Source: Olsenella profusa F0195 (GTDB lineage: Bacteria; Actinomycetota; Coriobacteriia; Coriobacteriales; Atopobiaceae). From it: a stretch of 64,000 nt of DNA. The notes under the pieces were generated by a model. That model was given only the letters and a program-made list of their open reading frames with translations, searched no databases and was not told where the DNA came from. Below, piece by piece: positions 21,159-55,590 of the stretch. Position 1 is the stretch's first letter. Each line of letters begins with the position of its first letter. Position numbers and translations under genes: made by a program. Location of the stretch: contig NZ_AWEZ01000017.1 of NCBI RefSeq assembly GCF_000468755.1, positions 1 to 64,000 of the forward strand. Reading direction: 5' to 3'.

Positions 21159-22850
21159 ATGGAGAGGCTGACGGGAGCACAGGTCCTCGCCCGCTGTCTG
21201 GTGGAACAGGGGGTCGACACGGTCTTCGGCTATCCCGGGGGCACGGTGCTCGACATCTTTGACGTGCTGTACGACTACCGGGACCGCATCCGCGTGGTCG
21301 AGCCCACGCACGAGCAGCATGGCACGCATGCGGCGGACGGCTACGCCCGCGCCACGGGCAGATGTGGCGTCATGATCGCCACCTCGGGGCCCGGCGCCAC
21401 CAACCTCGTCACGGGCATCGCCACCGCCTACCTCGACTCCGTGCCCATGGTTGCCATCACGGGCAACGTGAGCAACGCCATGATCGGCACGGACGCCTTC
21501 CAGGAGCTGGACATCACGGGCGTGACGCTGCCCATCACGAAGCACAACTACTTCGTGCGCAACGCGAACGACCTCCAGCGCATGCTGCGCGAGGCCTTCA
21601 AGCTCGCCTGCTCGGGTCGCAGGGGCCCCGTCCTCGTGGACATCCCCGCCGACGTGCAGCGCGCGCTCATCGGCTACCATGAGCTTGGCCCCGTGGAGGC
21701 GGACGATCCGCTCGAGCCCAGCGAGGGGTCGCTCGAGCGGGCGGCACGGCTCATCGACAAGGCCCAGCGCCCCTTCGTCTACTTTGGCGGCGGCGTCGTC
21801 TCGGCGGATGCGGGGGAGGAGGTCGTCCAGCTTGCCCGCATCATAGGGGCACCGATGGGCTGTTCGCTCATGGGCATCTCGGGCATCCCCACCGCCACGC
21901 GGAACTTCCTGGGCATGGAGGGCATGCACGGCCACTTTGCCAGCACGCGAGCCATGAACGAGTGCGACTGCCTCATCGCCCTGGGCGCCCGCTTCAACGA
22001 CCGCTCCACGGGCGACCGCAGGACGTTTGCACCCAGCGGCAAGGTGGTGCATGTCGACGTGGACTCCTCGGAGTTCTCCAAGACCCTGGACGACATGGCC
22101 GACGTGCATGGGGACGTCAAGAGTGCGCTCCAGAGGCTCGTGGGGCTGGTCTCCCCCAACACCCACGAGGAGTGGCTCCGTCACGTCCACGAGCTCTCCG
22201 CCCAGGAGCGGGGCTATGCGGACTACCGCGAGGGCATCACGCCCAAGAACGTGATGGACGCCATCAATCGCGTGCGCCCCGAGGACGTTCCCGTCGTGAC
22301 CGATGTGGGCCAGCACCAGATGTGGGCCGCCCAGTACCTCAGCTTCACGAGGCCACGCAGCTTCATCACGTCGGGGGGGCTGGGCACCATGGGGTTCGGC
22401 CTGGGGGCGGCCATCGGCGCCTCCCTCGCCACACGGGGACGATCCCTGCTCGTCACGGGCGACGGCTCCTTTGCCATGAACATGGCCGAGCTCGTCACGG
22501 CAGCCGACTATGGCGTGCCCGTGACCATCGTGCTGCTCAACAACGGGACCCTGGGCATGGTGCGCCAGATGCAGTCCCTGTTCAGGAAGGGGCGCCATGC
22601 CAACACCACGCTCGACCGCAGGGTCGACTACGTGGCGCTCGCCCAGGCGACGGGCACGGAAGGCACGCGCGTGGACACGATCGAGGACTTCGAGCGGGCC
22701 CTCGCCGACTCGCTCTCGGCGGACGGCCCCACGCTCATCGAATGCCCCATCGGCATCGACGAGTTCGTGACGCCCGTGCTGCAGATCGGTGCCTCGATGG
22801 ACGACCTCATCGTCAACATGGACGACGTGCGCGCCAGGATGGGGAGGTAG
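21159..22850 (+). CDS. ilvB: Acetolactate synthase large subunit, copy 1
   Basis: 563 aa, ThDP-dependent. It makes 2-acetolactate or 2-aceto-2-hydroxybutyrate. The catalytic Glu is in PTHEQHGTHAADGYAR, and the ThDP/Mg motif is GDGSFAMNMAEL...NNGTLGMV. The glutamate motif is HEQHGTHAADG rather than the common HEQGAAHAADG. It is followed 2 bases later by ilvN, so this copy is the likely holoenzyme partner of the regulatory subunit. A second large subunit lies at 24576. Confidence 0.93.
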   Translation: MERLTGAQVLARCLVEQGVDTVFGYPGGTVLDIFDVLYDYRDRIRVVEPTHEQHGTHAADGYARATGRCGVMIATSGPGATNLVTGIATAYLDSVPMVAITGNVSNAMIGTDAFQELDITGVTLPITKHNYFVRNANDLQRMLREAFKLACSGRRGPVLVDIPADVQRALIGYHELGPVEADDPLEPSEGSLERAARLIDKAQRPFVYFGGGVVSADAGEEVVQLARIIGAPMGCSLMGISGIPTATRNFLGMEGMHGHFASTRAMNECDCLIALGARFNDRSTGDRRTFAPSGKVVHVDVDSSEFSKTLDDMADVHGDVKSALQRLVGLVSPNTHEEWLRHVHELSAQERGYADYREGITPKNVMDAINRVRPEDVPVVTDVGQHQMWAAQYLSFTRPRSFITSGGLGTMGFGLGAAIGASLATRGRSLLVTGDGSFAMNMAELVTAADYGVPVTIVLLNNGTLGMVRQMQSLFRKGRHANTTLDRRVDYVALAQATGTEGTRVDTIEDFERALADSLSADGPTLIECPIGIDEFVTPVLQIGASMDDLIVNMDDVRARMGR

Positions 22851-22852
22851 GC

Positions 22853-23359
22853 ATGAGCAGCTATAGCATCGCCATCATGGTGCGCAACGAGTACGGTGTC
22901 CTCAACCGCGTGACGAGCATGTTCCGCCGCCGGCAGTTCAACATCACGGGACTCACCGTCTCGGAGACCGAGACGGAGGACCTCTCGCGCATCACCGTGC
23001 AGTTCGAGGGCGAGCGGCGCGCCAAGAACCAGCTCGTGGCCCAGCTTGCCAAGCTCCCCGACGTCATCTCGTACAAGGAGTTCGATCCCGAGGACTCCAT
23101 CAGCTGCGAGCTGCTGCTCATCAAGATGGCCAACGAGGAGAGCACGCGCTCCCAGGTGCTCGATGCGGCGGAGGCCTTCCACGCCAAGACCGTGGACTAC
23201 ACGCGCGACTCCATCGTCTTCCGCATCGCAGGAGGCACGAGACGCATCGACAACTTCATCGACCTCATGCGCGACTTCAAGATCCTCGAGGTCTGTCGCA
23301 CCGGGGTCGTCTCGCTCGAGCGCGGCCCATCCGTCATGCGCGACGTGGCCACGCTCTAG
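22853..23359 (+). CDS. ilvN: Acetolactate synthase small (regulatory) subunit
   Basis: 168 aa. N-terminal ACT domain (SIAIMVRNEYGVLNRVTSMFRRRQFNI) for valine feedback, then a C-terminal activation domain (ELLLIKMANEESTRSQVLDAAEAFHAKTVDYTRDSIVFRIAG). Typical IlvN/IlvH length. It sits between ilvB copy 1 and ilvC and is the only small subunit in the window, so it may serve both large subunits. Confidence 0.95.
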   Translation: MSSYSIAIMVRNEYGVLNRVTSMFRRRQFNITGLTVSETETEDLSRITVQFEGERRAKNQLVAQLAKLPDVISYKEFDPEDSISCELLLIKMANEESTRSQVLDAAEAFHAKTVDYTRDSIVFRIAGGTRRIDNFIDLMRDFKILEVCRTGVVSLERGPSVMRDVATL

Positions 23360-23430
23360 GGGTAACTCCGCCGTACACCAGCGGCGTCGTTATGGATTGG
23401 TACTGTAGGAACGGCGAAAGGAAGCGTTTC

Positions 23431-24450
<1,020 letters not shown>

Positions 24451-24456
24451 CATGGT

Positions 24457-24489
24457 GGCGCCTGGGCATCCGGGGGATGACCAGGCGCC
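24457..24489. terminator. Strong hairpin between ilvC and ilvB copy 2
   Basis: GGCGCCTGG (24457-24465) pairs with CCAGGCGCC (24481-24489). Beyond one mismatch, CATCC (24467-24471) pairs with GGATG (24475-24479), leaving a GGG loop. Fourteen base pairs in all, 7 bases after the ilvC stop, with no T-run. It could reduce readthrough or protect an mRNA end. Confidence 0.55.
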
Positions 24490-24575
24490 TGTGCGCGCGG
24501 ACGTGTCAGACAAGGCGGTTCCTCGGGCACAAGGCGCCTCGCCGGCGCAGGAGAGACACGCGGGAAGGGGCGCGC

Positions 24576-26279
24576 ATGGAGCTGACAGGTGCGCAGATAC
24601 TCATCGAATGCCTCAAGGAGCAGGGAGTCGACAGCGTCTTTGGCTACCCGGGTGGCACGATCCTGGACGTCTATGACGCCCTCTTTGAGACGCCCGAGAT
24701 CCACCACTACCTCACGAGCCACGAGCAGGGTGCCGCCCACGCGGCCGATGGGTACGCCCGCTCCACGGGTAGGGTGGGCGTATGCCTCTCCACGTCGGGC
24801 CCGGGCTGCACGAACCTCGTGACCGGCATCGCAACCGCCTACATGGACTCCTCCCCCATCGTTGCCATCACCTGCAACGTCTCCCGGAAGCTGCTGGGCA
24901 GGGACTCCTTCCAGGAGGTGGACATCACCAGCATCACGAGGCCCATCACCAAGTGGAACCGCGTGGTGGACGATGTGCACGACCTCGCCGACGTGGTCCG
25001 CCAGGCCTTCCTCGTGGCCAGAAGCGGACGTCCCGGTCCCGTGCTGCTGGACATCACCAAGGACGTCACCGCCGCCACCTGCGCGTACGAGGCCGTCCCT
25101 ACCGAGGAGCATCGCGTCTTCGAGCTCCCCAACCGGCTCTCCAAGCGCCTCATGGGCAGCCTCAACACGCAGGAGCCCAACCCACAGGACGTGGACACGC
25201 TCGTCGCCATGATCGAGGAGGCCGAGCGTCCGCTCATCGTGTGCGGCGGCGGCGTCGTGCGCAGCCGTGCGAGCCGGGAGCTCAACGCGTTCGCCAACCT
25301 CGTGGATGCACCCGTCGCCATCACGGTCATGGGTGCGGGCGGCTTCCGTGGGAGGGACCCGCTCTCCACGGGCATGATCGGCATGCACGGCTCGCAGGCG
25401 TCCAACATGGCCGTGGACAACTGCGACCTGCTCGTCGCCGTGGGCTGTCGCTTCTCCGACCGCGTGGCGCTGCAGCCCTCCACGTTCGCGCACCAGGCCA
25501 AGATCGTGCAGGTGGACATCGACAGCACCGAGATCGGCAAGAACGTGCGCTGCGACCATTCCGTGCTGGGCGACGCCAAGACCGTGCTCGCCATGGCCAA
25601 CGAGCGCCTGGGACAGCTGCACCACAGGCGCTGGAGGCAGTTCGTGCTCTCCTTCCCCACCGAGACGCAGTACGAGGAGGGCGGCGACCACCTCACCCCC
25701 AAGCAGGTCAACGAGATGGTCGCGCGGCTGTGTCCCGAGGACACCATCGTCGCCACCGACGTGGGCCAGCACCAGATGTGGGCCATCCAGCACTTCCACT
25801 ATGACTACCCCGGGCAGCTGCTCACCTCCGGGGGCTTCGGCGCCATGGGCTTCGGCCTGGGCGCCGCCATCGGCGCACAGGTGGGCAACCCCGGCACCTG
25901 CGTGATCCATGTGACGGGCGACGGCTCCTTCCGCATGAACTGCAACGAGTTGGCCACCGTCGAGCACTACCGGCTGCCCATCATCACCATCGTGTACGAC
26001 AACGCGGTGCTGGGCATGGTCCATCAGTGGCAGACGCTCATCTACGACGAGCGCTACTCCCAGACCACGCTCGACCGTCCGCCCGACTGGGTCAGGCTCG
26101 CCGACGCCTATGGCCTCACGGGCAGGCGCGTGAGCACGATGGAGGAGCTGGAGGTCGCCCTCACGGAGGCCCTCGCCTGTGGGCACGGCTACGTGATCGA
26201 TGCCATCATCGACCCGGACGAGATGGTGCGTCCCATGGTTCCGGCGGGCCAGCACATTACCAACTTCCTGGCCATCTAG
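24576..26279 (+). CDS. ilvB: Acetolactate synthase large subunit, copy 2
   Basis: 567 aa. Same ThDP fold as the copy at 21159, with the canonical SHEQGAAHAADGYAR glutamate motif and GDGSFRMNCNELATVEHY...DNAVLGMV cofactor motif. It differs from copy 1 throughout, so it is an old paralogue rather than a recent duplication. No second small subunit follows. It may share IlvN, work without one, or act as a catabolic acetolactate synthase. GGAAGGGG precedes the ATG. Confidence 0.92.
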   Translation: MELTGAQILIECLKEQGVDSVFGYPGGTILDVYDALFETPEIHHYLTSHEQGAAHAADGYARSTGRVGVCLSTSGPGCTNLVTGIATAYMDSSPIVAITCNVSRKLLGRDSFQEVDITSITRPITKWNRVVDDVHDLADVVRQAFLVARSGRPGPVLLDITKDVTAATCAYEAVPTEEHRVFELPNRLSKRLMGSLNTQEPNPQDVDTLVAMIEEAERPLIVCGGGVVRSRASRELNAFANLVDAPVAITVMGAGGFRGRDPLSTGMIGMHGSQASNMAVDNCDLLVAVGCRFSDRVALQPSTFAHQAKIVQVDIDSTEIGKNVRCDHSVLGDAKTVLAMANERLGQLHHRRWRQFVLSFPTETQYEEGGDHLTPKQVNEMVARLCPEDTIVATDVGQHQMWAIQHFHYDYPGQLLTSGGFGAMGFGLGAAIGAQVGNPGTCVIHVTGDGSFRMNCNELATVEHYRLPIITIVYDNAVLGMVHQWQTLIYDERYSQTTLDRPPDWVRLADAYGLTGRRVSTMEELEVALTEALACGHGYVIDAIIDPDEMVRPMVPAGQHITNFLAI

Positions 26280-47562: not shown

Positions 47563-49011
47563 CTACTCGCCCGAGGGGGCCGTGCCGACAGAGGGGCCAC
47601 CCACCGCGCCACCACGACCGCGACCGCCGCGATGGCGCCGCCGGCGCGGCTTGCGCTCTCCCGCCGTCCGGGCGGAGGCACCATCGCCCTCCTGCGGGCG
47701 TTGGTGCTGCTTGGCCTGCTGTCCACCACGGTCACCGGGCCGGCGGCGCTCCGAACGTCCTCGGCCCTGAGCCTTGCCCCCTGCCCGCTTGGCTTGCGTA
47801 TCGCCCTGCGCCTCCGTGCCCTCATGATGACGGCGGCGATGGCGCGTGGCATGCTGTGCGCCGCCCTGTTCGTGGTGCGCCGCCTGCGGGGCGACGTCGT
47901 TCGCATGCACCTTCTTGCGGCGGTGGCGCTGTCGCCTGGATCCCTCCGAGGCCCCCCCACCCTCGCCGCGCGCCTCGGGCGCGCCCTGTCCCTTCCCCCC
48001 ATGACGGCGACGGCGGGATCGGCTCTCCACAAAGATGTCGGACTCGTTGAACGTCTCCTGGGGGATCACGCCGTTTGCACGGTCAAGCTCGGCAAGGGCC
48101 ATCTGCACCTCGGGTGACTGCAGGCGCTCCAACGCCTCGCGCGACACCGTGTCGGGACGGCAGGGGCACGAGAGCTCCTCGCTCTTCCTGACGGCCGCCT
48201 CCGACGTGTCCATGTCGACCAGGGGGACACGGATCTGCTTGCCGCTCTCGAGACGCAGCGCAAGCTGCTCCTTGGGCGTGTCATACTCCACGATCTTGGC
48301 CTTGCCCAGCGGCGTCTCGATGACGGCATTGCGCTTGGGGGCACGACGCTTGAAGTCGCGGTAGGCGTCGAACTCGTAGCGCAGGCAGCACATGAGACGG
48401 CCGCAGGCGCCCGAGATCTTTGACGTGTTGAGGGGCAGGTCCTGCTCCTTGGCCATGCGGATGGAGACGGGCTCGAACTCGCGGCCCAGGCGGGCGCAGC
48501 AGAGCTCCTGGCCGCAGTGGGCATAGCCACCGGCAAGCGCCGCCTCCTCACGCACGCCGATCTGGCGCATGTCCACGCGCTCGTGCAGCTCGCGTGAGAG
48601 CTCGCGCACGAGCTGGCGGAAGTCCACGCGCTCCTCCGCAGAGAAGTAGCACACCACGCGGCCACCCCCAAAGAGGTATTCCACCCCCACGGGCTTCATG
48701 TCCAGGTCAAGGCCATGCACCAGGCGACGGAAGGTGGGCAGGGCGTCCTCGCCACGCTCCGCAAGCCGCTCGGCATGCTTGAGGTCATCGGGCGAGGCGA
48801 TGCGCACCACCGCACGCAGGGGGGCATCGCCCACGGTGTCCCTGAGGGTGTCCGCATCGACCTCCCGGGCATCCATGGTCACCAAGCCAATCTCCTGGCC
48901 ACGCTCCGTGGAGCATATGACGTGGTCACCCTCCTGGGCACCCGTCTCCTTGGGATCGAACCACAGGTCGTGCGTTACATAGTGAAACCTTACCGGTACG
49001 ACGGTGGGCAT
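47563..49011 (-). CDS. ricT: PSP1-domain protein RicT with long basic tail
   Basis: 482 aa. Residues 1-about 290 are the PSP1 domain, with paired cysteine motifs CGQELCC and CGRLMCC that in B. subtilis Ric proteins take part in iron-sulfur binding and RNase Y control. The last 160 residues are low-complexity, rich in Arg, Gly and His, and probably disordered and RNA-binding. The usual family length is near 270-300, so the tail is an addition. The start overlaps holB by 22 bases. Confidence 0.88.
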   Translation of the reverse strand: MPTVVPVRFHYVTHDLWFDPKETGAQEGDHVICSTERGQEIGLVTMDAREVDADTLRDTVGDAPLRAVVRIASPDDLKHAERLAERGEDALPTFRRLVHGLDLDMKPVGVEYLFGGGRVVCYFSAEERVDFRQLVRELSRELHERVDMRQIGVREEAALAGGYAHCGQELCCARLGREFEPVSIRMAKEQDLPLNTSKISGACGRLMCCLRYEFDAYRDFKRRAPKRNAVIETPLGKAKIVEYDTPKEQLALRLESGKQIRVPLVDMDTSEAAVRKSEELSCPCRPDTVSREALERLQSPEVQMALAELDRANGVIPQETFNESDIFVESRSRRRRHGGKGQGAPEARGEGGGASEGSRRQRHRRKKVHANDVAPQAAHHEQGGAQHATRHRRRHHEGTEAQGDTQAKRAGGKAQGRGRSERRRPGDRGGQQAKQHQRPQEGDGASARTAGERKPRRRRHRGGRGRGGAVGGPSVGTAPSGE

Positions 49012-50138
49012 GCGAGTGCCTCCTTGACAGAGAGGAGCATGGTCTCGATGACCAGCTGAGGTGTTACGTTGTGGGCGAGGTCGTCCCGTGCCTGCGCAAG
49101 CGCCTCGAGCGCGCGGAGACAGCCCTCCGAGGATGCGGAGCGCGCGATGCGGTCGATGGGGTCGTTCACGTCCTCGTTCACCACCGGCTCGCCGATTTCC
49201 TCGATACGCACGAGCACGTCGCGCAGGAGTGAGTCGGCAGCAGCCAACGCCTCCATCATACCCGAACGCTCGCGGGCACTTATCTCGCGCTTGTTGGCGG
49301 CCTCCACGCGCTTGAGTGCCGCGGGGCTCAGATAGTCGGCACTCTCGTCACGTGACGCCTCCTGGCGGGACCTCACCTGGTCGAGCGTCGCGTGCACTGC
49401 ATCGACGATGTCGCGCGCGGCGCACAGCACGTCCCACGCATCATCGCGAGCCAGCTCCCCCAAGGTGCGCACCACTTTGCGGCGCACCTCGCGACGACTG
49501 GTCGAGGCGAGAAACTCGGCCGCACGTCCGGGCGCTCCCGTGATGGAGAGCGCCACGCGCGCCTCGTATCCCGTGATGCCGCTCGCCCGCTCCACGGCGC
49601 GCGCCGCGGCATCCGGTGCCACGATGCGGAAGGGGACCTGCTGGCAGCGCGAGACGAGCGTGGGCAGCACCGACGCCGCAGAGCGGGCGATGAGCACGAA
49701 GTACGTGCCCTCGGGCGGCTCCTCAATGGTCTTGAGCAGGGCATTGGCAGCCGCACCGCGGAGCAGCCCCGCCTCGTCCAGGATATAGACCTTGGCCTGG
49801 GCGCGCACGGGTGCCAAAGGGACGTCGTCAATGAGCTCGCGCACCTGGCCCACGAGGTACCCCGTGGCGCTCTCGGGCTTGAGGTAGCGCACGTCGGGAT
49901 GGGTGCGGTGGGCCACGCGGATGCACTCGTCGCAGCTCGCGTCGCCGCCGCGGGGACAGATGATGCACGTCGCCAGGGCAAAGGCGCCCTCCACCATGCC
50001 CGCGCCAGGGGCGCCCAGAAAGAGATAGGCCTGGCTCAGCCGGCCCTCCGCAAGGGCGCGCGCAAGGAAGTCGCGCACGCGGGGCTGCTGGTCGAGGACG
50101 GAGAGGGCCTGGGGATATGGCGATGCCTGCGTACCCAT
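48990..50138 (-). CDS. holB: DNA polymerase III delta' subunit
   Basis: 382 aa. Clamp-loader AAA fold: LFLGAPGAGMVEGAFALA stands at the P-loop without the catalytic Lys, as expected for delta'; zinc cysteines CIICPRGGDASCDEC; KVYILDEAGLL; LLKTIEEPP; SRCQ. The ATG at 50138 follows AGGGGG. The gene lies with ricT and, across a 2.2 kb insert, tmk. A diverged copy of this start lies at 52345-52402. Confidence 0.9.
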   Translation of the reverse strand: MGTQASPYPQALSVLDQQPRVRDFLARALAEGRLSQAYLFLGAPGAGMVEGAFALATCIICPRGGDASCDECIRVAHRTHPDVRYLKPESATGYLVGQVRELIDDVPLAPVRAQAKVYILDEAGLLRGAAANALLKTIEEPPEGTYFVLIARSAASVLPTLVSRCQQVPFRIVAPDAAARAVERASGITGYEARVALSITGAPGRAAEFLASTSRREVRRKVVRTLGELARDDAWDVLCAARDIVDAVHATLDQVRSRQEASRDESADYLSPAALKRVEAANKREISARERSGMMEALAAADSLLRDVLVRIEEIGEPVVNEDVNDPIDRIARSASSEGCLRALEALAQARDDLAHNVTPQLVIETMLLSVKEALACPPSYR

Positions 50139-50158
50139 GTCAGTTGCCCCCTGCCAGG
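50101..50158. repeat. Repeat arm at the intact holB start
   Basis: 58 bases covering the first 12-13 codons and ribosome site of holB. By hand alignment without gaps it matches 52345-52402 at 40 positions. The two arms bracket the decaying ABC region in direct orientation. CAGGTTGC (50155-50162) and GCAACCTG (50204-50211) form an 8-base dyad at the insert side. Confidence 0.7.
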
Positions 50159-50601
50159 TTGCTCGCATCAGGCTGCGAGGTGGCAGCAGACGACCTTTGC
50201 GGGGCAACCTGACCTTGCAAACTGAGCATGAAAGTCCTTATCAGAGAAAAGCACGTTTTTTGCATGACAGTCTCTTGAATTGTAATGAGGGCGTACCGAA
50301 GTGCCAAGCCAGACTGCAAGTACTCCGAAGATCGTAGGCTGACACCCACAGGTACGTCAACAGGCCGTCAACGTCACACACCCATCCCCAAAGAGGCAGA
50401 TTGCAACGCTCACCGAGATACTTTAGCTCAGATAGCCCATTGACAAGGGGACGGTACATCACACTCACCACCTGCTCTAGACTGCGCCTCTACCTAGACT
50501 TAGAGGAGCGAGGCATTGGAGCGCGGCAAAGACGCTGGACACTTTTATAGTTGTACCGACAATGAGCCCACCTCGCCCCTTCTAATGACGCGACCAGAAC
50601 T
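50139..50601. other. Gene-free, AT-richer gap at the holB end of the insert
   Basis: 463 bases, visibly richer in A/T than its neighbours. Short frames on both strands have no recognisable content. The segment next to 50139 holds the holB ribosome site and presumably a promoter for holB-ricT-queD now that tmk is separated from them; GATAAG near 50237 (minus strand) could be part of a -10 but no full promoter is convincing. Confidence 0.45.
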
Positions 50602-51438
50602 CTACGCAGGTTGAGAGAGCAGCTGCGTATGAGCGAGGTTGCGATAGAGTGGCGATGTCTGCAATAGTTGTACGTGAGTGCCCTCGTCAACCACCCGCCC
50701 ACCATCAAGTACCAGTATGTCGTCCGCATCCACAACTGTCGAAAGACGGTGCGCCACAATACTGCGAGCGCTGTGTGGTGCGTAGCAATCGATCAGGTTT
50801 TGGGCAAGCTCCTCGTTTGCCCCATCAAGATTGGATGTTGACTCATCGAGCAGGAGCAGTTCGGGTTCCCTCAGTAGGGCCCTCAGCAACGCAAGCCTCT
50901 GACGCTCCCCACCAGAAAGCAGCACTCCATGCTCACCAACGTCGGCATCCAATCCATCGTGTGATCCATTGCACACGTCAATGAGGTTACATGCCTGAAG
51001 CATGCACATGAGCTTGGCATCATTCACCTGTGAGATTCCAAGGGTCAAATTGTCTCTGATGGTTCCTGACAGAATGGGGGCATCCTGCTCCACATAAGCG
51101 ATATGGTTGCGCACGATGCGACGATCGAGGCTAGCGACGTCAGCCCCTTTGAAAAAGATCGTTCCGCCCACAGGATCATAGAGTCGCGAGATAAGATCGA
51201 GCACGGTACTCTTCCCGGCACCCGAGGGTCCCACTATTGCAAGCGCCTCTAAGAGAGAGGTGACACCAATGCAACGTTTTTTGCCACCTTGAACCCCGTT
51301 TGCCAGACGTTATCACACTGCTCCTCGATTTAATAGGCCAAGTATGACAATTGCTACTAGCAGCTTTGTTTGTTTGAGCACCCCATAGAACAGCTCTCCC
51401 AGGGCGGCTCTCCTGTCAAACCCATTGGGTGCATTCAC
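50602..51438 (-). pseudogene. Decayed ABC exporter: N-terminal stub plus nucleotide-binding domain
   Basis: A GTG at 51438, overlapping the permease stop (GTGA), opens 41 codons ending in a first membrane helix (QTKLLVAIVILGLLNRG) and then TGA TAA. The same frame continues to 50602 as a full ATPase domain: VGPSGAGKST, YVEQDAPILSGTI, LLSGGERQR, LLLLDESTSNLD, VAHRLSTV. About 300 residues of membrane domain are missing. Intact relatives are MsbA/BmrA/LanT-type exporters. An internal deletion best explains this. Confidence 0.8.
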
Positions 51439-52214
51439 GTCTGCACCCCCCTCCTCTGAAAGAGAAAGCCGGCCAACGCCATGAAAACCACGACCCATAT
51501 CGTGAGGACAAGGAGTGCGACACCAGGCCCAAGGCCGGCAGAGGGGGTCTCTGCCACAATAGAAGAGGGGTCATACAACTGCACTCCCGCAGAAAAGGGC
51601 AAGTACTGCGCTCCAGGCATGAGATGCACCAAGACCAGCGTGAACTGTGATGTAACGATCAGGATCAGGAGAGGCGTCAGAGCCTGACGACAGATTATCG
51701 TAAGCGCAAAGCTTAGCAGCGCTATGGCGGCCCAGCTGACTATCGCCCCACCCAAGCTCAACAGGTAGGAAACAGTAATTCCACCATGCAGGATGCCAAC
51801 CTCCCCAAGCTGCAGTTGGCTTATGAACGCAACAAGGGGAACGACGACCATTCCCAAGAGCAGCGAAACAACGCCAACGGCAAGCGCCTTGGCCCCAAGG
51901 AGACGCAGACGATTCGGAACCGCAAGTAACGACACCTTGAGCTGGTCAAATTGATACTCACTACTGACAGATATGCTTCCCAGAAGTATGAGAAAAACCT
52001 GGCCCAGCTCTATGCCGTCAAACCCAACGGACTCCGGTGTTATGCCCGGAGCAAGTGTGGGGTCACCGGTACTGATCGCGTCTCTCACGGAGGGCGTTGT
52101 CAGCAGCGCATAGAGTGGCAGAAGCACGGTTGTTGCCGCAACTACATACCGAATAAAACGCAGAGTGAGCAACTTCTTGAATTCTGATGAGACCGCACGT
52201 GCAAAAGCCCTCAT
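51435..52214 (-). CDS. ABC-2 family permease, orphan
   Basis: 259 aa. Six hydrophobic segments; the start MRAFARAVSSEFKKLLTLRFIRYV and the external loop with TPESVGFDGIELGQVFLILLGSISVSSEYQ resemble lantibiotic-immunity or bacteriocin-type ABC-2 permeases. The ATPase that normally accompanies such a permease is not beside it, and the next gene is a decayed exporter, so it may no longer function. The start at 52214 has only a weak ribosome site. Confidence 0.7.
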   Translation of the reverse strand: MRAFARAVSSEFKKLLTLRFIRYVVAATTVLLPLYALLTTPSVRDAISTGDPTLAPGITPESVGFDGIELGQVFLILLGSISVSSEYQFDQLKVSLLAVPNRLRLLGAKALAVGVVSLLLGMVVVPLVAFISQLQLGEVGILHGGITVSYLLSLGGAIVSWAAIALLSFALTIICRQALTPLLILIVTSQFTLVLVHLMPGAQYLPFSAGVQLYDPSSIVAETPSAGLGPGVALLVLTIWVVVFMALAGFLFQRRGVQT

Positions 52215-52344
52215 CCCACCATTCTTACCAAGGCAAGAAGGGCCATGTAAGCCAGTCAAGACAAGGCGAGACACTTCGATCGCGCGATATGAGACACATG
52301 CCAGCCAACGCTGCAGCATCTTTCATCTTTGATTCCCAAACAAG

Positions 52345-52402
52345 CAAAGGGCCCTGAGATACAGGGATACCCACGCACCTATGTCAGTCTCCTCCTGCCA
52401 AC
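52345..52402. repeat. Diverged copy of the holB 5' end
   Basis: Three bases past the tmk stop, the minus strand reads a ribosome site (GGCAGGAGGAG) and then ATAGGTGCG where holB has ATGGGTACG. It continues in register for about 12 codons before drifting. The spacing from tmk stop to this lost start is 23 bases, as expected for an old tmk-holB junction. The start codon is destroyed (ATG to ATA). Confidence 0.7.
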
Positions 52403-52405
52403 ATG

Positions 52406-53053
52406 TCACAACGGGTGGAAGTCAAGCTGCGGAAACGTATGACGGACAAGGGACGCGACACGCAGGGAGACCTCATCCTCCGAGGCGTCGGCATCCACCA
52501 CCATCACGCGACCAGGCTCCATCCCCGCAAGCTCGAGATATGCATCGCGGACCCGCTCCTGAAACTGGGCCCCTTCGGCCTCAAGCCTGTCTACGCCGCC
52601 CTTGGTAGCACGACGCAACGCGAGCTGGGGGTCAAGGTCAAGAAGGAACGTGAGGTCCGGCACAAGGCCACAGCTCCCCAAGAGATTGCAGGACAGCGTG
52701 ACGTCCCTGTCCACCCCTCGTCCGCCATACTGGTAGGCAAACGTGGAATCAAAGAAGCGGTCGCTCACGACGATGGCCCCCCGCTCCAGCGAGGGCTGGA
52801 TTACCTGTCGCACGAGCTGGGCCCTAGACGCGTTCATGAGCAGGAGCTCGCACTCGTCTGCCATCTCGTCGCTACGGGGGTCGAGCAGGATGGCCCGTAT
52901 CCGCTCGCCAATGGGCGTACCACCGGGCTCACGCAGGAGGATGACCTCCATGCCGGCGGCCTCAAGCGCATGTGCCAGGCGATGCGCCTGAGTAGTCTTG
53001 CCAGAGCCATCGATGCCCTCGAACGTTAGGAAGATGCCACGCTCGCCGTTCAT
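52406..53053 (-). CDS. tmk: Thymidylate kinase
   Basis: 215 aa. P-loop FEGIDGSGKTTQ, DRX motif SDRFFDST, and LLDLDPQLALRRA. Phosphorylates dTMP to dTDP. The ATG at 53053 overlaps the topA stop (ATGA). Its former downstream partner holB is now 2.2 kb away. Confidence 0.94.
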   Translation of the reverse strand: MNGERGIFLTFEGIDGSGKTTQAHRLAHALEAAGMEVILLREPGGTPIGERIRAILLDPRSDEMADECELLLMNASRAQLVRQVIQPSLERGAIVVSDRFFDSTFAYQYGGRGVDRDVTLSCNLLGSCGLVPDLTFLLDLDPQLALRRATKGGVDRLEAEGAQFQERVRDAYLELAGMEPGRVMVVDADASEDEVSLRVASLVRHTFPQLDFHPL

Positions 53054-55590
53054 GACGCACTGCCCCTTCTTGAACCCGCGCGTGACGCGCTCCTTTTGGC
53101 CGAGGTCCCCCGCTTGCTCCCGCGTCCGCGGGCGGGCTTCTTCTCCTTGCCCGGACAGTCCATGTTCACGCAGATGCGCCAGGGGCCACGCGCCGTCACG
53201 ACCTCCACGATGGGCGCGCCGCAGTGGGGGCAGGTCTCGCCCGTGGCGTGCAGCTCGCCGCGCTGCGGCAGGGGGTAGCTCACTCCACACTCGTCGTAGT
53301 TGGTACAGCGGATGAAGCGCTTGCCCGTCCTCTCGCTCTTGTGGGCCACGAGGTCCCCGTGGCGCCCCGCCTCCCTGCAGACGGCGCACTCCCCCACCAC
53401 CACATCGGGCTCGCGATTGGTCTCGCAGGCGGGGTTGACGCACATCTCGAAGGCCTTGGAGCGGAAGGGCTTGCACTTGATGCGCGGTGCGCCGCACACG
53501 GGACACACGCCCGCCTCGCCCTCGAGGGGCTCCACCCTCACGTTGGACGGCACGGGATAGGTGACGTCGCAGTCGGGCCAGCCCATGCAGCCGATGAAGC
53601 TTCCGCGCGTCTTGGCGGAGCGCTTCATCACGAGGTCCTTGCCGCATCTGGGACATACGCCCACCTTGGCGTCGGCCGTCACGGCATCCGCGATGGCCTC
53701 GCCGAGATCCTCCTTGTGCTCGATGAGCGCGTCCACCATGCCCGCAAGCAGCGCGCGCGAGTGCGTGACGACCTGCTCCTGGGTGTCGGCTCCCTCGGCG
53801 ACCTTGGTCATGTCGGCCTCGAGCTCCGCCGTCATGTCGGGCGTGGTGATGTGCGGGGCATAGGCATGCAGCGCCTCGATGACGGCCATGCCCAGCTGGC
53901 TGGGTTCCACCGGATCGTTCTTGATGTACTTCACGTCCAGGAGGCGCTGGATGATGTTGGCGCGCGTGGACTTGGTGCCCAGGCCGCGGCGCTCCATCTC
54001 CTGGATGAGACGACCCTGGCTGTAGCGCGCGGGCGGCTCCGTCTGCTTGGCCTCAAGGCCCAGGGAGACCACGTCCACCACGTCACCTTGGGCGAGCGCC
54101 GGCAGCACCTCGTCCTTGCGCTGGCCGAAGGGGTAGATGCCGCGGAAGCCCTCCTTCACGATGACGGTGCCCGAGGAGGTGAAGGGCTCATTGGCGATGT
54201 CAAGCGAGAGCTTGGTGGACTCGCTGACCGACGGCTCGGAGAGCGTGGCCAGGAAGCGGCGGGCGATGAGGTTGTAGAGGCGCCAGGCCGCACCGTCGAG
54301 ACGGTCGGGGTCCGCCGCGCCCGTGGGGTAGATGGGCGGGTGGTCGGTGGTCTCCTGCTTGCCGCGGGTGGCCGTGAGCCTGCCCTTCCCGAGCAGCTCC
54401 GTGCAGCAGGGCCGGTACTGCGGGACGGCCGAGAGCGTGCGCACGCAGCCCTTGAGGTCGAGCGATCTGGGATACACGGTGTTGTCCACGCGCGGGTAGC
54501 TGATGAGGCCGTCCATGTAGAGCGACTCGGCCAGCCGCATCGTGCGTGCGGGCGAGATGCCGATGGAGGCGGCCGCGGCCTGCAGCGAGGTGGTGTTGAA
54601 GGGCGCGGGCGGCCGCGTGGTGCGACGCTTCCTCTCCACGCCCGTCACCGTGGCAGTCGTCGCGCCCCTGACATGCGCATAGGCGACGTCCGCGGCGGCC
54701 TTGTCCTTGAAGCGCGCCGTGGCGTGCGTGGCCTTGAACGCCACGTCCTCGCCGCGCTGGCCTTGGGGTGCCAGCAGGCCCGAGAGCACCCAGTAGTCCT
54801 CCGGCACGAAGGCCTCGCGCTCGCGCTCCTTCTCCACCACGAGGGCCAGCGTGGGCGTCTGCACGCGGCCGGCCGAGCGCACGTTGCCAAAGCCGCCAAA
54901 GCGCGCCATGGTGAGGTAGCGCGTGAGCACGGCGCCCCAGATGAGGTCGATGCACTGGCGGCTCTCGCCCGCATCGGCGAGGTCCTGGTCGAGCTCCACC
55001 AGGTGGGAGAAGGCATGGTCGATCTCGGCCTTGGTGAAGGCGGAGTAGCGGGCGCGCGAGACGGGGGTGCCGGGCGCCACCTCGCACATCTGGCGCAGGG
55101 CGTCCGAGCCGATGAGCTCGCCCTCGCGGTCGAAGTCCGTGCCGATGACGATGGAGTCCGCCTTCCTGGCAAGGTTCTTGAGGGCGCGGATGATGCCCTT
55201 CTCGGCGGGGAGCTTCTCCACGGGAGCCCATACCAGATAGGGCAGGCTCGGCACCTTCCAGCCCTTGATGTCGATGCCGTCCTTGAGGAAGGGCTTGCGC
55301 TTGGTGTCGTACGGTGGCCGGGCCAACGTCTCCGGCACGGTGGCTGGCATCACCTCGCCCTCCGCCGTGACGGCAAACCACCCCTCCTTCTTTGAGTAGT
55401 GCAGCTCATGGGGGAAGTCGGGAGCCATGATGTGGCCCCTCAGGCCGATGGTGACCCACTCCTCCCCCTCATGCGTGAAGCGGTAGACTGGCGTGTCGTA
55501 CACCTTGTCGGCCGTGGGCTTGCCAGAGGTCGAGAGCAGCCGTGCGATCTGCTGTGCGGCATCGTTCTTCTCGGTGACAACGAGCTTCAA
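53050..55590 (-). CDS. topA: DNA topoisomerase I, archaeal-like type IA
   Basis: 846 aa from a TTG start 7 bases after GGAG. TOPRIM domain with VTEKNDAAQQIARLL and TDFDREGELIG (residues 151-161). The active-site Tyr365 is in LISYPRVDNTVYP, closer to archaeal topoisomerase I than to the bacterial ITYMRTDS form. Four C-terminal zinc fingers (CPRCGK, CPVCG, CAVC, CPHCG) and a Lys/Arg/Ser tail follow. It relaxes negative supercoils. A minus-strand TATAGT at 55626-55631 may be its -10. Coupled to tmk. Confidence 0.9.
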   Translation of the reverse strand: MKLVVTEKNDAAQQIARLLSTSGKPTADKVYDTPVYRFTHEGEEWVTIGLRGHIMAPDFPHELHYSKKEGWFAVTAEGEVMPATVPETLARPPYDTKRKPFLKDGIDIKGWKVPSLPYLVWAPVEKLPAEKGIIRALKNLARKADSIVIGTDFDREGELIGSDALRQMCEVAPGTPVSRARYSAFTKAEIDHAFSHLVELDQDLADAGESRQCIDLIWGAVLTRYLTMARFGGFGNVRSAGRVQTPTLALVVEKEREREAFVPEDYWVLSGLLAPQGQRGEDVAFKATHATARFKDKAAADVAYAHVRGATTATVTGVERKRRTTRPPAPFNTTSLQAAAASIGISPARTMRLAESLYMDGLISYPRVDNTVYPRSLDLKGCVRTLSAVPQYRPCCTELLGKGRLTATRGKQETTDHPPIYPTGAADPDRLDGAAWRLYNLIARRFLATLSEPSVSESTKLSLDIANEPFTSSGTVIVKEGFRGIYPFGQRKDEVLPALAQGDVVDVVSLGLEAKQTEPPARYSQGRLIQEMERRGLGTKSTRANIIQRLLDVKYIKNDPVEPSQLGMAVIEALHAYAPHITTPDMTAELEADMTKVAEGADTQEQVVTHSRALLAGMVDALIEHKEDLGEAIADAVTADAKVGVCPRCGKDLVMKRSAKTRGSFIGCMGWPDCDVTYPVPSNVRVEPLEGEAGVCPVCGAPRIKCKPFRSKAFEMCVNPACETNREPDVVVGECAVCREAGRHGDLVAHKSERTGKRFIRCTNYDECGVSYPLPQRGELHATGETCPHCGAPIVEVVTARGPWRICVNMDCPGKEKKPARGRGSKRGTSAKRSASRAGSRRGSAS

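Follow-up and report, generated by a model that had tools for sequence, protein, structure and literature searches.

Analysis of the window, by which we mean the whole stretch of 64,000 nucleotides of Olsenella profusa F0195 DNA studied here (66% GC, part of a 2.72 Mb genome), revealed the minus-strand gene order topA, tmk, insert, holB and ricT. The tmk gene ends with the stop codon TGA at 52408-52406 (minus strand). The insert that separates it from holB has a GC content of about 53-55% versus 64-70% in the flanks, and is bounded by two related sequences, which we call arm R (beside tmk) and arm N (at the holB start).

Organization of the tmk–holB junction

The features of the junction, read from tmk towards holB, are as follows.

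52406..53053, minus strand: tmk (dTMP kinase), upstream flank (TIGR00041, E 2e-50; Thymidylate_kin, E 5e-49)
52345..52402, minus strand: arm R, original ribosome site of holB with the first ~13 codons, now decayed and with ATA in place of the start codon (40/58 to the holB start)
52274..52276, minus strand: deletion junction, 3647 bp missing relative to genome G092 (3-base overlap of two alignment pieces)
51435..52202, minus strand: ABC-2 type permease gene, ORF intact (PF12730, E 1.5e-7)
51313..51438, minus strand: putative 5' fragment of an ABC exporter gene, followed by an internal deletion (ORF list; same break in G092)
50602..51234, minus strand: 3' fragment of the ABC exporter gene, ATP-binding domain without the membrane domain (ABC_tran, E 5e-25)
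50159..50601, minus strand: non-coding stretch upstream of holB (no Pfam or PHROG match in six frames)
50101..50158, minus strand: arm N, ribosome site and first codons of holB, the copy in use (alignment with R)
48990..50138, minus strand: holB (DNA polymerase III delta' subunit), complete (PF13177, E 2e-39; TIGR00678, E 2e-45)

The ATG of holB, at 50138, lies within arm N, and the closest named relatives of the HolB protein are those of Olsenella and other Atopobiaceae. The start of the putative exporter 5' fragment overlaps the stop of the permease gene, and its assignment to the exporter is suggested by this position and by a membrane-like segment. Matches of the 3' fragment to MsbA-type and bacteriocin exporters are confined to their C-terminal ~200 residues. 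Neither the ORFs nor Pfam, NCBIfam and PHROG scans yielded an integrase or recombinase gene, or a fragment of one, in the window or in the 5.9 kb allele of G092 described below, and a six-frame search of the 450 bases preceding holB detected no integrase remains. No Rfam family was found in the insert. The insert matches another contig over 31 bases, but this match falls in an unrelated ABC ATPase gene and was discarded.

The genes of the insert and holB point in the same direction. The holB gene is essential, and arm N must therefore be expressed. Both strains have a promoter-like sequence, TTGGCA-17-TACAAT (50307-50279 in the window), some 140 bases ahead of holB. Promoter-like sites numbered 6 against 3.3 (sd 1.9) in shuffled sequences; because these matches are not clearly above chance, we propose only as a hypothesis that the insert may supply the promoter of holB.

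Similarity between the two arms

Arm R begins 3 bases past the tmk stop and aligns with arm N without gaps at 40 of 58 positions, while the next best match for either arm, scanning both strands of the whole window, reached 30-32 of 58. The binomial tail for 40/58 is 3e-11 at p=0.27 and 1e-9 at p=0.30, and local alignment of the 400-base flanks scored 25 compared with a maximum of 17 among 1000 shuffles. Only 11 same-strand pairs lying 500-8000 bases apart in the window attain 40/58; the others derive mostly from repeated coding genes at 21.2-26.1 kb, or from a single ORF at 17-18 kb. The repeated coding gene pair itself (window 21159-26279, ~3.45 kb apart) is the source of most of the other long direct repeats. 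The first-pass annotation had counted 40 matches by hand between these 58 bases and the holB start and had read the old start codon as ATA; recomputation returned the same count, the formal alignment placed the similarity far above chance, and the ATA was seen in both genomes of the species, the window's and G092. Its description of the insert as AT-richer also agrees with the GC values given above.

Within a 56-base core of the alignment, 12 of the 16 mismatches are transitions (p=0.0008 against 1/3), which argues that R and N share descent. The differences fall on codon positions as 4, 6 and 4. Such an even spread fits the unconstrained decay that an idle copy R would undergo, and is supportive rather than decisive since the first HolB residues are loosely conserved anyway. 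Similarity between the arms drops to background upstream of a TGGCAGG motif and again ~58-65 bases further on. No homology was detected between the 3' end of tmk and the stretch upstream of N, nor between the remainder of holB and the left part of the insert. The arms have diverged to 69% identity with no long identical core, and at an arm divergence of 28% the original identity of the repeat cannot be shown.

A small terminator-like hairpin is present in R at window 52352-52366 (L054 3079-3093), formed by CCCTGTATCTCAGGG and then CCCTTTGCTT, and is absent from N. Hairpins of this type are no commoner than chance here; the old holB start could have turned into a terminator of tmk.

The junction in related genomes

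We compared the junction in 140 genomes of the family and in a 150-genome sample of the order. In this set, the species is represented once more, by G092 (a single contig of 2.6 Mb), alongside three congeners. Among 102 Atopobiaceae loci in which tmk and holB could both be placed, some of them redundant, the gap between the two genes was -57 to +82 bases in 92, including all three congeners; the empty state is therefore ancestral. The distance of 23 bases between the tmk stop and the former start codon of R falls within that seen at the closed junctions, and R thus marks the original holB start. It follows that the insert sits inside the original gene, near codon 13.

The loci that are not closed come from six genomes, namely the window's, G092, G029, G090, G091 and G106, and the order sample adds two splits, G250 (9.1 kb) and G240 (0.9 kb). 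No holB-start arms were found at the splits of G029, G090, G091, G106, G240 and G250, where no score exceeded those of shuffled sequences; apparent arm scores in L180 and L181 proved to be overlaps of the compared stretches and were rejected. The inserts read at the other split junctions are unrelated in content, and none of those read in the family and order survey contains an integrase. The 9.1 kb insert of G250, in another family of the order (L178, G250:C85, 2093-11234), is independent and carries sugar and amino-acid genes (a sugar phosphotransferase, an aldolase, a dehydrogenase and ilvD); it is bracketed by palindromic intergenic GGGTTGGTTGGGGACGTG repeats and holds no integrase. In two genomes of one genus, G091 (L055) and G090 (L056), a gene between tmk and holB resembles the DUF1287 family by eye. 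A second holB in G027 (L059), considered as a parallel case, was set aside as a probable scaffold artefact, since it duplicates the first copy and its reading frame leads into scaffold gaps (unknown residues).

G092 carries the same arms R and N around an insert of 5916 bp. Reading towards holB, its cassette first encodes a HisKA_3 sensor kinase and a LuxR-type response regulator, then a permease, an ABC ATPase, a second permease and an ABC exporter. The best NCBIfam match of the ATPase is TIGR03740 (gallidermin protection) at 191.5 bits, under the cut-off of 309.75. The second permease belongs to PF12730, while the first has no family match and is 29% like the second. The exporter has kept its first residues and its ATP-binding domain and lost most of the membrane domain, and ~450 bases without a recognisable gene lie between it and holB.

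The window allele (~2.3 kb) is without 3647 bases of the G092 insert, beginning a little past R and stopping just short of the second permease, which in G092 carry the kinase, the regulator, the first permease and the ATPase; the pieces join at a 3-base overlap. Since the sensor kinase has no copy elsewhere in the window's own genome, the window allele is a deletion derivative of the longer one. The first-pass annotation, which had only the tail of the cassette in view, reported decaying ABC genes; the insert is more than that, as one permease ORF is intact, one ABC exporter is broken and G092 shows 3.65 kb more genes.

The arms differ at 28% of their core positions versus ~1% between the two strains, so that the insertion is far older than the split of the strains, provided that both arms were identical at the outset. 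Between the window and G092, divergence rises to 5-10% in two blocks, 49917-50697 (holB start) and 52750-53500 (tmk/topA), against a background of ~1%, and the insert between these blocks is nearly identical. The blocks are likely to be recombination tracts, and homologous exchange probably acts at this locus.

The permease of the cassette is absent elsewhere in the family save for relatives at 32-33% identity. The nearest relatives of the cassette, at this identity, are similarly laid-out transporter genes in G002 and G153, away from holB. No close relatives of the permease were found in genome and viral contig collections; among plasmids, the second permease had one weak match and the first had none.

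Origin of the insertion

Foreign AT-rich DNA splits a formerly empty site, the old start is idle, and the cassette has been shrinking. The tmk–holB pair has been split by DNA, and the start that holB uses today is a second copy. A split of the operon by a mobile or recombining piece of DNA had been put forward in the first-pass annotation; the split of an ancestral empty site is borne out, with an integrative element as a possible agent. The replacement of the holB 5' end which it also described corresponds to a complete gene starting from N, and its reading that no integrase remains holds for the window and the 5.9 kb allele alike. Of the two outcomes that it left to junctions in relatives, empty sites were present, so that the 2.2 kb arrangement is not ancestral, whereas an intact, integrase-bearing element at the same junction was absent from all splits read among the 140 family genomes and the 150-genome order sample.

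We propose that the stem lineage of this Atopobiaceae species received, at about codon 13 of holB, a foreign cassette of at least 5.9 kb with genes for a two-component regulator, for an immunity-type ABC transporter and for an ABC exporter. The joining would have left a direct repeat of ~58 bases over the holB ribosome site and first codons, the element's own copy (N) would have become the working start of holB, and the old start beside tmk (R) would have lost its function and decayed. The exporter has lost most of its membrane domain, and 3.65 kb of the cassette is deleted in the strain of the window. The best explanation for the repeat, to which we give a probability of roughly one half, would be the duplication of an attachment site by an integrase that has since been lost. 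Since neither insert contains an integrase and the other splits have no arms, we infer the mechanism, be it an integrase or the recombination of incoming DNA. Evidence against an integrase consists of the lack of such a gene or fragment in either allele, of any recurrence of the site with an integrase among the splits read, of arms at the other split junctions, and of a long identical core in the two arms.

Homologous recombination would account for the absence of an integrase, as an incoming fragment or non-replicating circle with the cassette next to a holB start would have recombined within holB without any integrase, by a single crossover or by homology-facilitated illegitimate joining, the duplication being a by-product. 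The inserts read at this junction in other genomes have no integrases either, and the divergent blocks at the holB start and tmk/topA are signs of recombination between strains. This route needs a donor with the cassette already beside a closely similar holB start, and none was found; moreover, the repeat ends after ~58-65 bases, which is short for a homologous crossover unless it was trimmed later. We regard it as a tenable alternative with a clearly smaller share of the probability, about as much as a one-in-three guess would deserve. A tandem duplication of the holB start, with the cassette entering later between the copies by unrelated means, is improbable: it would produce two copies without any special element at a junction that does take inserts in other lineages, but it requires two independent events, and none of the relatives showed a doubled start with the insert missing.

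Genes between tmk and holB could be ancestral and lost in relatives, since a few of these (G029, G090, G091, G106, G240, G250) also have inserts, but the inserts read are unrelated in content, all are without arms and nearly all other junctions are closed; the survey of family and order refutes this reading, and we hold it to be very improbable. The probability that the arms resemble each other by chance, or by convergence of two ribosome sites of similar composition, is negligible. A purine-rich ribosome site is indeed present in both, but the ungapped 40/58 against a next best of 32 in 64 kb, with a tail of about 1e-9 to 3e-11, refutes it, and the excess of transitions, the exact register with the holB start and a position expected of the old start speak against it as well.

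Returning to the proposed integrase-made duplication, such repair of the target is known for integrative elements, as the first-pass annotation had noted. Streptococcal ICEs with tyrosine integrases insert in the 5' ends of ftsK, rbgA and ebfC with direct repeats of 12-54 bp, and leave the N-terminus of the protein, in some cases also 15-64 bp upstream, unchanged (PMC4701971). The holB insert resembles them in using the start of a housekeeping gene, in direct repeats that overlap the upstream region and in the N-terminus being kept; in some of these ICEs the upstream sequence is replaced, as at holB. Unlike the ICEs, which carry conjugation genes besides the integrase, the holB insert has neither, its arms have diverged to 69% and it was seen in a single species. 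The SpyCI phage-like islands of Streptococcus pyogenes lie in the 5' end of mutL, and the immobile island SpyCIM5 of strain Manfredo supplies a promoter that rescues the gene (PMC3430984). The likeness is that of an island at the 5' end of a gene within a co-transcribed DNA-metabolism gene set; unlike SpyCI, which has int and is excised in SF370, the holB insert keeps only cargo, and excision is not expected.

The cargo is similar to LanFEG-type immunity transporters under two-component control, with one ATPase, a PF12730 permease and a further, putative permease beside a kinase and a regulator, and with gallidermin protection as the best match of the ATPase. It differs in that this match is under the cut-off, the regulator is LuxR-type with a HisKA_3 kinase and no lantibiotic genes were seen.

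Among the traits of an integrative element, the locus shows an empty site in relatives and terminal direct repeats, although diverged, by which the target gene is restored; an integrase or recombinase gene and the use of the same site by related elements elsewhere were not found. We consider it doubtful, though worth stating, that the Atopobiaceae harbor a family of integrative elements which would use the holB ribosome site and first codons as attachment site and bring a replacement start and promoter, the window holding a dead member.

A decayed insertion at the holB start is confirmed as real; it is of a kind already known from other bacteria rather than a new system, and a literature search found no published report of holB as an integration site. 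The case shows that a replication gene can survive the entry of foreign DNA at its start, the old start being visible as a scar. If an intact relative were found, holB would be added to the few genes that have integration sites at their 5' ends, and the use of its 5' end in this way, if true, may affect the expression of delta' and its operon.
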